Shown: positions 3,614 to 14,006 of the stretch, piece by piece
Layout: the number at the start of each line of letters is the position of its first letter
How positions within the stretch are numbered: position 1 is the stretch's first letter
IMG/VR virus record: IMGVR_UViG_3300009481_000010
Span: 1 to 64,000 of that record
Length of the DNA stretch: 64,000 nt
Reading direction: 5' to 3' (one strand)
DNA from: a virus
The notes under the pieces: generated by a model
The model's input: the letters and a program-made list of their open reading frames with translations, nothing else
Database searches by the model: none
Told to the model about the DNA's origin: nothing
Made by a program: the position numbers and the translations under genes

Positions 3614-4129
3614 ATGAAGACTAAACAGTGCCGCAATTGCGGAGAGACGAAGTCGTTGGACGACTTTCACAAAGACGGTAAGAAATCTAGTAAAGACGGT
3701 AGGCATTCGTATTGCAAAACATGCTCTATTGAGAAAGCTAAGGCCGCATACAGAAGACAAACCCCAGAGCGTAAAGCTGAATTAAAACAACAGGCCCTAG
3801 AAAAGAAAAGGGCGATGTATGAAATCTGTAATACAATAAAAGATAAACATGGATGTCAAAAGTGTCCAGAGAAAGATCCTTGTTGCTTAGACTTCCATCA
3901 TCTTGACCCATCAGATAAAGACAAAGAAGTATCTTGGCTCGCAGCCCACAAAAACTATCAAAGGATGATTGACGAAATCAATAAATGTGTAGTAGTATGT
4001 ACAAACTGTCACCGAAAGATTCATGCTGGAAAGCTAAACACTGAGGGTCTTCTTCCCTGTGAGGAAGAGTACGATCCCAAGTGGATGGTACATAAACGAC
4101 GCCCTCATGGTGTAACGGGTAGCACATGA
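3614..4129 (+). CDS. HNH homing-type endonuclease, Zn-finger fused (copy 1)
   Basis: 171 residues, SD GGAGGTG before ATG 3614. N-terminal CxxC...CxxC finger (CRNCGETKS to CKTC, residues ~6-35), then the HNH core: CQKCPEKDPCCLDFHHLDP and CVVVCTNCHRKIHAG, with structural Cys pairs and FHH/NCH catalytic signatures. A free-standing endonuclease that would cut DNA at or near this locus. Its last ten codons are read from the 5' part of the overlapping tRNA-Lys gene, suggesting the gene reached its place by insertion beside a tRNA. Own promoter. Confidence 0.9.
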   Translation: MKTKQCRNCGETKSLDDFHKDGKKSSKDGRHSYCKTCSIEKAKAAYRRQTPERKAELKQQALEKKRAMYEICNTIKDKHGCQKCPEKDPCCLDFHHLDPSDKDKEVSWLAAHKNYQRMIDEINKCVVVCTNCHRKIHAGKLNTEGLLPCEEEYDPKWMVHKRRPHGVTGST

Positions 4130-4172
4130 TGCTTTTAACATTTCGGACGGGGTTCGAGTCCTCGTGGGGGTA
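4101..4172 (+). tRNA. tRNA-Lys(UUU)
   Basis: Acceptor GCCCTCA/TGGGGGT, D arm GTGT-AACGGGT, loop CTTTTAA (UUU), T arm with TTCGAGT. The anticodon stem TGATG/CATTT has one mismatch and wobble pairs. Its first 29 nt overlap the end of the HNH gene. Paralogue of the tRNA at 4272. Confidence 0.85.
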
Positions 4173-4180
4173 CTTTCAGT

Positions 4181-4231
4181 ATGATATACTTAATGATTTG
4201 GCTTGTAGGAATGCTAATAACACTTGGCTAA
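4181..4231 (+). CDS. Possible 16-residue hydrophobic peptide
   Basis: ATG 4181 to TAA 4229, giving MIYLMIWLVGMLITLG, wholly hydrophobic. Lies between the two Lys tRNAs with no clear ribosome-binding site. Reported only because the sequence resembles a membrane peptide; may be noise. Confidence 0.2.
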   Translation: MIYLMIWLVGMLITLG

Positions 4232-4271
4232 GATGAATGATTCACTAAAATAACGCCCATATGGGCGACAT

Positions 4272-4342
4272 GCCTTCATGGTGTAACGGGTAACACTCAC
4301 GCTCTTAACGTGACATTCCGGGTTCGAGTCCTGGTGAGGGTA
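4272..4342 (+). tRNA. tRNA-Lys(CUU)
   Basis: Acceptor GCCTTCA/TGAGGGT, anticodon stem TCACG/CGTGA with loop CTCTTAA (CUU), T loop TTCGAGT. Very similar to tRNA-Lys(UUU) at 4101, so the pair arose by duplication. Confidence 0.92.
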
Positions 4343-4347
4343 CTTCA

Positions 4348-4563
4348 ATGACAGATAAAGAGTTAATTTGGAAAAAACTCAAGCATGACGTAGGCTCTTT
4401 TCATGACTGTGTATATGAGGTCAATCAGGTTTCACATACGGACGACGAACTAAGAGACATCTTTCTCTCGTTACCAGACGACATGATAGGCACAGCATAT
4501 TCATGGGGACTATCAGATACGGTCTTTAGAGATTCGGTTTATGTTTACCTGAGAGAAGGATAA
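4348..4563 (+). CDS. Hypothetical protein
   Basis: 71 residues, ATG 4348 only six nt after tRNA-Lys(CUU), so it would share the tRNA transcript. Acidic, mixed alpha/beta (MTDKELIWKKLKHDVGSFHD). No recognised domain; no strong SD. Confidence 0.6.
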   Translation: MTDKELIWKKLKHDVGSFHDCVYEVNQVSHTDDELRDIFLSLPDDMIGTAYSWGLSDTVFRDSVYVYLREG

Positions 4564-5936: not shown

Positions 5937-6005
5937 CCGCTGTTCGTCTAAACAAGATCCCTGGTACACGAGGAGATAGGGGTTCAAATCCCTTACAGCG
6001 GCCCA
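5937..6005 (+). tRNA. Short tRNA-like gene with perfect acceptor, anticodon unclear
   Basis: Perfect seven-pair acceptor CCGCTGT/ACAGCGG and encoded CCA. T arm AGGGG-TTCAAAT-CCCTT. Only 66 nt before CCA, about seven short, mainly in the anticodon/variable part; candidate anticodon hairpin CCT-GGTACACG-AGG. GUA or UAC are possible readings but neither has U33. Possibly a minimal or inactive tRNA. Confidence 0.5.
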
Positions 6006-6011
6006 CACACT

Positions 6012-6422
6012 ATGCCAAAGCAGTGTTCAAGATGTAAAGAAGTGAAGCTCACTTCTCAATTCAACAAAAATAAGACTAAGAAGGACGGTTTCCAATATTA
6101 TTGCAAGACTTGTCAGGCTGCTGGTACAAAAAAGCATTATGAGGCAACTAAATCAGTTTATATTCAGAATGCGGCAAAACGTAAAATTGAAATGAAAGAC
6201 TGGTTTGAGAACTTAAAGTCTGGGTTAAAATGTAAAAACTGCCCAGAAAATCATCCAGCATGTCTTCAGTTTCATCATAGAGATCCATCCCAAAAAGATC
6301 TAGCAATTTCATCAGCGATGCAAAGTGGTTGGGGGAAGAAGCGAATCTTAGAAGAAATAGATAAGTGTGATGTATTGTGTGCAAACTGCCACTTTAAGCA
6401 TCACTACAATGAACGCCACTAG
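6012..6422 (+). CDS. HNH homing-type endonuclease, Zn-finger fused (copy 2)
   Basis: 136 residues, a shorter relative of the gene at 3614. N-terminal finger (CSRCKEVKLTSQF to CKTC), then CKNCPENHPACLQFHHRDP and CDVLCANCHFKHH, the HNH core. Start ATG 6012 lies just after the CCA of the short tRNA, and the stop TAG 6420-6422 lies inside tRNA-Trp, so the gene sits exactly between two tRNAs. No own promoter seen. Confidence 0.88.
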   Translation: MPKQCSRCKEVKLTSQFNKNKTKKDGFQYYCKTCQAAGTKKHYEATKSVYIQNAAKRKIEMKDWFENLKSGLKCKNCPENHPACLQFHHRDPSQKDLAISSAMQSGWGKKRILEEIDKCDVLCANCHFKHHYNERH

Positions 6423-6484
6423 TTCAATCGGAAGAACATCTGATTCCAAACCAGAAGAACGGGGATCGTAACCTCGGTGGTGTG
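6413..6484 (+). tRNA. tRNA-Trp(CCA)
   Basis: Acceptor ACGCCAC/GTGGTGT, D stem GTTC/GAAC, anticodon loop TTCCAAA (CCA) on a four-pair stem, T arm CGGGG-ATCGTAA-CCTCG with an unusual T loop (A54). First ten nt overlap the end of the HNH gene. Confidence 0.75.
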
Positions 6485-8639: not shown

Positions 8640-8712
8640 GAAGACATAGCTCAGTTGGCAGAGCAGCGAGTTCTAACCTCGTGTGTCATGGGTTCGAGTC
8701 CCATTGTCTTCT
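8640..8712 (+). tRNA. Amber suppressor tRNA, anticodon CUA
   Basis: A textbook class I cloverleaf: acceptor GAAGACA/TGTCTTC (7 of 7), D arm GCTC-AGTTGGCA-GAGC, anticodon stem GCGAG/CTCGT with loop TTCTAAC, so U33-C34-U35-A36, T arm ATGGG-TTCGAGT-CCCAT. Anticodon CUA reads UAG only. It is among the best-folded tRNAs of the array, arguing against decay. It lies 44 nt upstream of a gene with two in-frame UAG codons. The amino acid it carries is not evident from sequence. Confidence 0.93.
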
Positions 8713-8756
8713 TGGTTACTAAGTACTTTCGAGAAATTTTACAAAGGAAAATTTTG

Positions 8757-9575
8757 ATGTTGTAGACTCACGACGAATTTCTGAAACACGGCGAACTTGT
8801 TTGGGAATACCTGCAAAGAATCATAAGTGGGGATTGGGAAGGGATGAAGATCCCGGATTGGTTGTTGGAGTATCACTCGCAACTGGTCTCAAACTTACCA
8901 GACATTGAAACACTGAGGCAGTATACTGTATATCACGATTGCGGTAAACACCTCGTAAGATACTATGATGACGAAGAAAAAGTCCATTATCCAGATCATG
9001 TAAATGCTTCTGCGAACTACTGGTTAGAGAATGGTGGTAGTGAAGAGGTTGGTGAACTTATCAGAAACGATATGTTCTTCCATACCTGCAAAGCGAAAGA
9101 TGTTGAAGAGTCAACACTGACCAACGAACAACTTTCAACCCTACTACTTGCATCACTAGCTGAACTTCATGCGAATGCAGAAATGTTCGGCGGTATTGAA
9201 TCAACCAGCTTCAAGATCAAGTACAAACAAGTCAACAGGCGTGGAAAGAAATTTTGTGAGAGACTGAACGATCCATAGGGTCATACCTATGTCTTTGTTC
9301 GGAATGATATCCCTGACTCCCAGAAGGCTGTGCAGGGCGGTCATGCAGCATTAGAATCTGCACGAAAATTCAAAGAGGACAATCATCCATCTTTGGTTTA
9401 CCTTCGGGTAAAGAATGAGGCGAAACTTCGAAAGGTCATCAGGGAACTGATCGATAACGAAATTGATTTCGTAGTGTGGCGGGATGATATCTTCAGTGAT
9501 GAGATCACTGCGGTGGCTACTCAGCCACTGCATGGGGATAAGAGGAAACTGCTTAGGAGATACTCACTATTATGA
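8757..9575 (+). CDS. HD-like domain fused to peptidyl-tRNA hydrolase 2-like domain through in-frame UAG codons
   Basis: One frame from ATG 8757 to TGA 9573, interrupted only by TAG at 8763-8765 (codon 3) and 9276-9278 (codon 174). The start has AAAGGAAAATTTTG upstream, the same leader as the SPFH gene at 15734. Codons 4-29 are coding-like (THDEFLKHGELVWEYLQR) and the frame continues into an HD-like domain (YHDCGKHLVRYY). After the second TAG the frame runs straight into a PTH2-like fold: YVFVRNDIPDSQKAVQGGHA, VKNEAKLRKVIREL, DEITAVATQPL. That domain has no in-frame ATG or GTG early enough to include its first strand. Without suppression only an internal start at ATG 8844 could give the HD part alone. 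PTH2 enzymes cleave peptidyl-tRNA; that activity here is inferred. Confidence 0.85.
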
Positions 9576-13673: not shown

Positions 13674-14006
13674 GGGGACGTTTTGGAATCGACTGATAGT
13701 AGAGAGTAATGATCGCGTGTACTGGTTGATCTAAGGGCCAGTTAAAAAATAGATCGAACAATAGATGCAAAAACATCTGTACTAATGGCAGCGTAAGCTG
13801 CGGGCTTCTCTGCGAGCCTTTTTACCCAATCGTAGAATATATCGGATAACAGACGAGAGTAGCGACTTAATCGCCGTGCCCATGAGGGACAAGGTATGAT
13901 AGACCCGCCTGGCGAAGACTATCCTCTGGTATGTGGCACATACCTACACACGTAGAAGTTATTATGATTGCTAATCAACACACGGGTTCGAATCCCGTCG
14001 TCTCCA
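13674..14006 (+). ncRNA. ssrA: tmRNA (ssrA), tag AKTSVLMAA
   Basis: The 5' end GGGGACG pairs with CGTCTCC near the 3' end (7 pairs, one G-T). The conserved TTGGAATCGACTG follows the acceptor strand and the 3' half has a T arm ACGGG-TTCGAAT-CCCGT. Resume codon GCA at 13767 is preceded by ATAGAT, matching the ATAGxx-GCA context of E. coli. It encodes AKTSVLMAA and stops at TAA 13794, ending in the AA that marks proteins for proteolysis. Size 333 nt with pseudoknot-like stems between. No CCA encoded. Confidence 0.93.

Follow-up and report, generated by a model that had tools for sequence, protein, structure and literature searches.

What is a suppressor tRNA for when it stands just ahead of a gene that is interrupted, twice, by the stop codon that this tRNA would read? 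The arrangement lies in the window analysed here, the first 64 kb (64,000 nucleotides) of the 154,328-base IMG/VR virus record IMGVR_UViG_3300009481_000010, a record in which ARAGORN and Rfam find 25 tRNAs and one tmRNA. The features concerned are these:

8640 to 8712, plus strand: suppressor tRNA with anticodon CUA, CCA not encoded (ARAGORN cloverleaf; Rfam RF00005, 65.2 bits)
8744 to 8749, plus strand: ribosome-binding site AAGGAA (inside AAAGGAA), upstream of the ATG (sequence)
8757 to 8762, plus strand: start ATG and codon 2, TTG, preceding the gate (sequence)
8763 to 8765, plus strand: gate UAG, codon 3, next base A (sequence; gates of relatives)
8766 to 9275, plus strand: HD-domain part of the protein (PHROG 14850; conserved HD ligands; AlphaFold2 pLDDT 96.9)
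9276 to 9278, plus strand: second UAG, codon 174, immediately 5' of PTH2, next base G (sequence; gates of the separate PTH2 genes of relatives)
9279 to 9572, plus strand: PTH2-domain part (Pfam PF01981, E 1e-6; PTH2 fold of a fused homologue)
9573 to 9575, plus strand: TGA that ends the joined frame and shares bases with the start ATG (9572) of the following ORF (sequence)
13674 to 14006, plus strand: phage tmRNA (ARAGORN; Rfam RF00023, 76.1 bits)

By Rfam score the tRNA is the best of the window. As an earlier note on this DNA had claimed, it is well formed; 44 nt separate it from the ATG at 8757, which has a strong ribosome-binding site (the 3' end of AAAGGA lies 8 nt ahead of it) and opens a joined frame of 273 codons whose sole interruptions are UAG at codons 3 and 174. 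The second UAG does fall between an HD-like and a PTH2-like part: the latter scores 29.4 bits against PF01981 (curated cut-off 23), and the former, a weak match to Pfam HD (E 0.02), clearly belongs to the phage family PHROG 14850 (E 8e-53), to which no function is assigned. DNA searches of phage records turned up nothing closely related to the window and nothing related to its tmRNA; the protein has relatives in large phages at roughly 31-45% identity.

The metal ligands of the HD family (H...HD...D) are kept, with H8, H57, D58, H78, D102 and H106 present in 52-53 of 53 rows, and the nearest solved relatives, HD domains of tRNA-processing enzymes (PDB 3wfo-3wfs), are nearest both by profile (E 4e-4 over 67 positions) and by fold (a weak Foldseek match, E 0.02, TM about 0.5), a kinship that is suggestive but weak. 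For PTH2, the fold of the fused homologue L028 clearly matches the PTH2 structures 2zv3, 3erj and 1q7s, Bit1 being among the matches. In archaeal PTH2 the GKGK lysines have a role in catalysis; they are missing from the phage PTH2, which has a conserved glutamine in the aligned stretch, and to judge from its sequence their absence makes hydrolase activity uncertain. Starting at the first ATG past the gate, at 8844, would drop the conserved H8-G9 of the HD family, and PTH2 cannot begin after UAG174 with its first strand intact because no ATG, GTG or TTG lies between 9279 and 9330, as the earlier note had noticed.

Profile scans of IMG/VR yielded 62 PTH2 and 80 HD loci, which were then dereplicated; the loci are related by descent, so that counts are not of independent events, and some records are fragments. 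A stop codon lies between the ATG and the PTH2 or HD domain in 96 of 120 deduplicated loci, the window included, and this sequence comparison confirms that the observation is much larger than the window. The gates remaining after dereplication comprise 122 UAG, 5 UGA and no UAA; among these 127, codon 3 is the commonest position (61), followed by codon 4 (37) and codon 5 (14), within an overall range of codons 2 to 9. Homologues are gated in 13 sequence-checked cultured phages and in many uncultured ones, with the two domains fused, swapped in order or separate. A fused HD-PTH2 gene that starts MK#T (# standing for UAG, at codon 3) is found in Stenotrophomonas phages RAS14 and CM1 and in Xanthomonas phage XacN1. 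In Cronobacter GAP32, Pectobacterium CBB, Serratia BF, two Erwinia SNUABM phages, Kaldavass and XbC2, PTH2 and HD are separate genes in swapped order; there PTH2 begins M(A/T)(Q/H)#, with UAG at codon 4, and the UAG of HD stands at codon 47. The same scheme occurs in Acinetobacter ME3 (MT#), phage Arash (ML#) and Tenacibaculum pT24 (a PTH2-HD fusion, MK#). Several cultured-phage records annotate the gated genes as shorter or split ORFs.

The earlier note had set against its own reading the case of HD and PTH2 as separate genes with normal starts; where the two genes are separate, one or both are usually gated, and this objection fails. Those for PTH2 carry their own gate just 5' of the first strand, matching the place of UAG174, and a second UAG at the HD/PTH2 junction was found in the window phage only and in none of the relatives. 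A fusion retaining both gates is the simplest history for this one sequence. Unlike PTH2 genes, HD genes often have an ATG between gate and domain, in many about 10 codons downstream. On the PTH2 tree, a quick tree built on few columns, gate state requires 13 changes compared with 27 for shuffled labels, and the gate is therefore inherited yet repeatedly changed. Gated HD-family genes with a CUA tRNA within 1 kb were also found in bacterial assemblies (L324, L328 and L329), and the HD-family genes of Psychromonas, a Crocinitomicaceae MAG and a Pseudomonas serbica plasmid (L326, L327 and L330) lack both an ATG-stop gate and a flanking CUA tRNA. A search, run without a positive control, for an HD gene in the 30 records whose PTH2 locus had none did not find one. 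At the other end of the gene, four loci (L030, L036, L067 and L077) have UAG as the PTH2 stop followed by roughly 20-37 in-frame codons, a possible suppressible C-terminal extension.

Could these gates be accidents? Among ORFs of at least 70 codons with an early stop, those for HD or PTH2 have TAG in 123 cases, TAA in none and TGA in 5, whereas all others in the same DNA divide into 109 TAG, 124 TAA and 131 TGA. The TAG excess is thus confined to HD/PTH2 genes, which argues against chance because accidental ATG-stop pairs would spread over all three stops. The context of the stop differs as well: the base at +4 of the gate UAG is A in 98 cases, G in 19, C in 5 and U in none, compared with U 65, A 59, G 54 and C 40 for terminal TAGs (Fisher 8e-22), and amber suppression in E. 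coli is raised by a purine at +4, a change from C to A giving about 10-fold for SupE (PMC6266110). Moreover, differences over the first eight codons past the stop number 381, 313 and 734 by codon position, the third-position excess of coding sequence, whereas the 24 nt upstream of the ATG have a flat pattern.

The gates also go with a tRNA that fits them: in 0.94 Mb of flanking DNA, tRNA-CUA outnumbers every other tRNA (71 genes versus 18 for the next). It lies within 1 kb of the gene in 45 of the 65 loci that have a suppressor, and by our tally ARAGORN finds a matching suppressor for 67 of the 96 gated loci, 49 in the flank and 18 elsewhere in the record, as in RAS14, XacN1 and XbC2; for the other 29 it was not confirmed (fragments, or tRNAs missed by patterns and ARAGORN). 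The strongest test of the fit between gate and tRNA that sequences offer is the covariation of UGA gates with tRNA-UCA, which was found in three of three testable UGA-gated records: L081, with two tRNA-UCA, has a UGA gate in its PTH2 gene as well as in its HD gene, and L137 and L142 have UGA in HD with one and two tRNA-UCA in the record, respectively. Because L137 and L142 cluster on the PTH2 tree, this pairing amounts to about two events. Since UGA also ends ordinary genes in all three, we rejected translation by code 4 as an account of the UGA-gated loci. Conversely, the PTH2 genes of Klebsiella RaK2 and Erwinia Hallingskeid are ungated, and a search of both records gave no CUA tRNA.

The association is not strict. 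At about 14 loci a CUA tRNA adjoins a PTH2 or HD gene that lacks an early gate, and a group of ungated PTH2 genes (L038, L053, L057, L064, L068, L072, L074 and L075, around 4000-4550) has tRNA-CUA directly downstream, at 0-161 nt; because an ungated PTH2 can adjoin a CUA tRNA (as in L068, L074 and L075), tRNA and gate are separable. A gated PTH2 had been predicted for Atu_ph07, which has an opal suppressor, and for Phosso, which has a CUA tRNA, and no PTH2 of the family studied here was found in them. By eye, the tRNA that ARAGORN calls 'tca' in L087 seems mis-called. Five further genes (L264, L269, L274, L279 and L280) are, judged by eye, CUA tRNA-like with odd D arms, were missed by ARAGORN and are absent from the Rfam report; two of them stand some 60-150 nt ahead of a gated PTH2. 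Two other suppressor candidates, L278 and L288, proved to match the 3' part of tmRNA instead, with scores below Rfam's gathering level; each lies about 200 nt from the gated PTH2-HD fusion that follows it (in L094 and L092).

Genes for other ribosome-related functions also occur in these neighbourhoods. tmRNA genes, mostly permuted, lie within 4 kb of PTH2/HD genes at 14 of 119 loci (for example L081 1815-2159, L085 804-1167, L101 2826-3175 and L146 1288-1620), and proteins with an RF-1 domain were found near PTH2/HD genes at six loci; both could be a coincidence of tRNA-rich regions. The tmRNA of the window possibly shares one ribosome-rescue theme with the gated gene. As a separate observation, four release-factor-like genes (RF-1 domain, GGQ) about 3.5 kb or less from PTH2 (L038 ~290-960, L074 ~310-977, L075 ~490-1164 and L055 ~1850-2532) are each broken by a single in-frame UGA whose place is conserved (GGC TGA; VG@IN in three, EG@LN in L055, @ marking the UGA), in DNA where UGA is also an ordinary stop. 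They have the motif PPT, which we take to occupy the place of the RF1 PxT motif. In L042, an ORF without Pfam match at 5954-6433, about 25 nt before three tRNA-CUA genes, may also be gated, with a Shine-Dalgarno sequence, an ATG, UAG at codon 3, 157 open codons and no early ATG.

Several other accounts of the interrupted frames have to be weighed. Stops that break conserved domains might reflect sequencing errors or a decaying pseudogene, an account to which we give practically no credence and which we rejected: the same type of stop stands at the same place in divergent phages, including the separately deposited RAS14 and CM1, and selection for coding acts directly after it. Hardly more credible is a reassignment of UAG throughout the genome (code 15), with the gate as one UAG-coded residue. 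A tRNA-CUA is indeed present, as in recoded phages, but TAG ends 28 of 136 non-overlapping ORFs of at least 100 aa in the window phage genome (the gated HD frame included) and 218 ORFs of at least 120 codons in the loci of relatives, early-TAG ORFs outside HD/PTH2 are no commoner than early-TAA ones, and XacN1 has 18 amber stops genome-wide (PMC5852040). The pattern of a recoded phage, with UAG frequent inside many genes and rare as a terminator, is thus absent, and recoding was rejected; the window phage is not recoded, because UAG serves it as an ordinary stop elsewhere in the genome. Improbable too, if less so, is that ATG-x-UAG forms a tiny regulatory ORF, a leader minigene after which ribosomes reinitiate just past the gate, the tRNA being incidental. 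In its favour, the gate is followed in 52 of 122 cases by ATT, a codon that can serve as a weak start, many HD genes offer an ATG about 10 codons downstream, and two-codon minigenes, the topic of PMC10192219, cause drop-off of peptidyl-tRNA, the substrate of Pth. Reinitiation would, however, be indifferent to the type of stop, whereas the gates never have UAA and those with UGA accompany tRNA-UCA; many post-gate codons (AAC, AAT, ACC) cannot be starts; the Shine-Dalgarno spacing suits the ATG upstream of the gate; and 29 of 30 such PTH2 loci have TAG, with no ATG before the first strand.

A different kind of alternative accepts the lock and disputes its use, which might be timing or safety, HD and PTH2 being delayed until the tRNA operon is expressed, or a harmful protein being kept silent outside infection. 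We give this close to an even chance, and rate a simple timer or safety catch about level with the governor role described below. The same sequence evidence supports it, and a PTH2 without the archaeal lysines is not assured of a role in tRNA rescue; the tRNA-related look of the gated families is left unexplained, as are the nearby tmRNAs and RF-1-domain genes, unless the latter are coincidental.

The earlier note had read the locus as a readthrough switch with its own suppressor tRNA. That reading is strongly supported by comparison of the sequences, which demonstrates the gate, its specificity for stop type, its +4 context, its physical linkage to the tRNA and its covariation with the anticodon. 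We infer actual readthrough and charging of the tRNA, to which the covariation lends indirect support, and a ratio of two products, and we hold it very probable that standard-code phages place a translation lock on tRNA-acting proteins that their own suppressor tRNA opens. The mRNA offers a good ribosome-binding site and an ATG, yet its codon 3 is UAG, with a next base that favours suppression. Where charged phage tRNA-CUA is lacking, release factor 1 would stop translation after two residues and no protein would be made; once the tRNA is transcribed, processed and charged, UAG3 would be read and the HD protein produced. In the window phage, a second suppression at codon 174 would add PTH2, giving HD alone and some HD-PTH2, so that UAG174 may set the ratio of the two, as the earlier note had proposed. 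In relatives, the gate stands ahead of PTH2, of HD or of both, a UGA gate pairing with tRNA-UCA. Many large phages would thus probably make gated tRNA-handling proteins only when the matching tRNA works.

What the lock might serve is a more tentative matter. Because the gated proteins resemble tRNA-acting enzymes (a peptidyl-tRNA hydrolase fold, and an HD domain nearest to tRNA-processing enzymes), they could form a governor, in which proteins that handle the peptidyl-tRNAs or damaged tRNAs left by suppression would be produced only in the presence of suppression and in step with its strength. We think it possible, at somewhat less than even chances, that they deal in this way with tRNAs or ribosomes affected by suppression, with an output proportional to it; the missing GKGK lysines weaken the proposal. 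More conjectural still is a closed loop of a so far undescribed kind, in which the suppressor tRNA would be the inducer and the gated PTH2 and HD would act on that tRNA or its peptidyl-tRNAs; with tmRNA and release-factor-like genes taking part, standard-code phages would in this way meter how strongly stop codons are suppressed in the infected cell. Such a loop might sense translation stress, as the earlier note had suggested.

If true, the lock would explain why phages with an ordinary code keep suppressor tRNAs, which so far lack a known target; a gated gene, in a family commonly annotated as truncated or split, is a candidate in XacN1 and other large phages. The authors of the XacN1 genome reported two CUA tRNAs, looked over the 18 amber stops of the whole genome as if they were read through, and found no target gene (PMC5852040); ORF364, with MK# upstream, is a candidate target. 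Because about a fifth (28) of the larger ORFs in the window phage end in TAG, a suppressor that is active would lengthen some of the phage's own proteins as well. We found no earlier description of the gate in the open-access literature searched. If true, the lock would also be a natural counterpart of a synthetic-biology design, the stop-locked gene opened by a matched tRNA.

How does this arrangement compare with known systems? On the protein side, the phage PTH2 shares the Pfam domain and fold of the archaeal enzymes and human Bit1, but has a conserved glutamine in the stretch where the archaeal enzymes have the GKGK lysines; the HD protein has its best solved relatives, weakly by both profile and fold, in the HD domain of the tRNA nucleotidyltransferase type (3wfo-3wfs), but lacks a nucleotidyltransferase domain. 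In stop-recoded phages (code 15), as here, a phage tRNA-CUA decodes UAG inside genes; they reassign it in many genes, whereas here UAG still ends genes in the ordinary way and gating is mainly confined to a single gene family, at codon 3 or near it. Pyrrolysine and selenocysteine are alike in that a special tRNA gives a stop a new meaning in a few genes while the genome keeps the standard code; the pyrrolysyl-tRNA synthetase profile TIGR02367 matched control genomes and had no match in the window phage genome, and the gate differs in adjoining the start, where no special residue is expected, and in alternating between UAG/CUA and UGA/UCA. In viral programmed readthrough (gag-pol, Q-beta A1), ordinary tRNAs misread a leaky stop and the upstream product is functional. 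The likeness lies in a leaky stop that governs an extra protein, and UAG174 of the window resembles this; here, by contrast, the phage encodes its own suppressor, and what is made upstream of the stop amounts to 1-8 residues.
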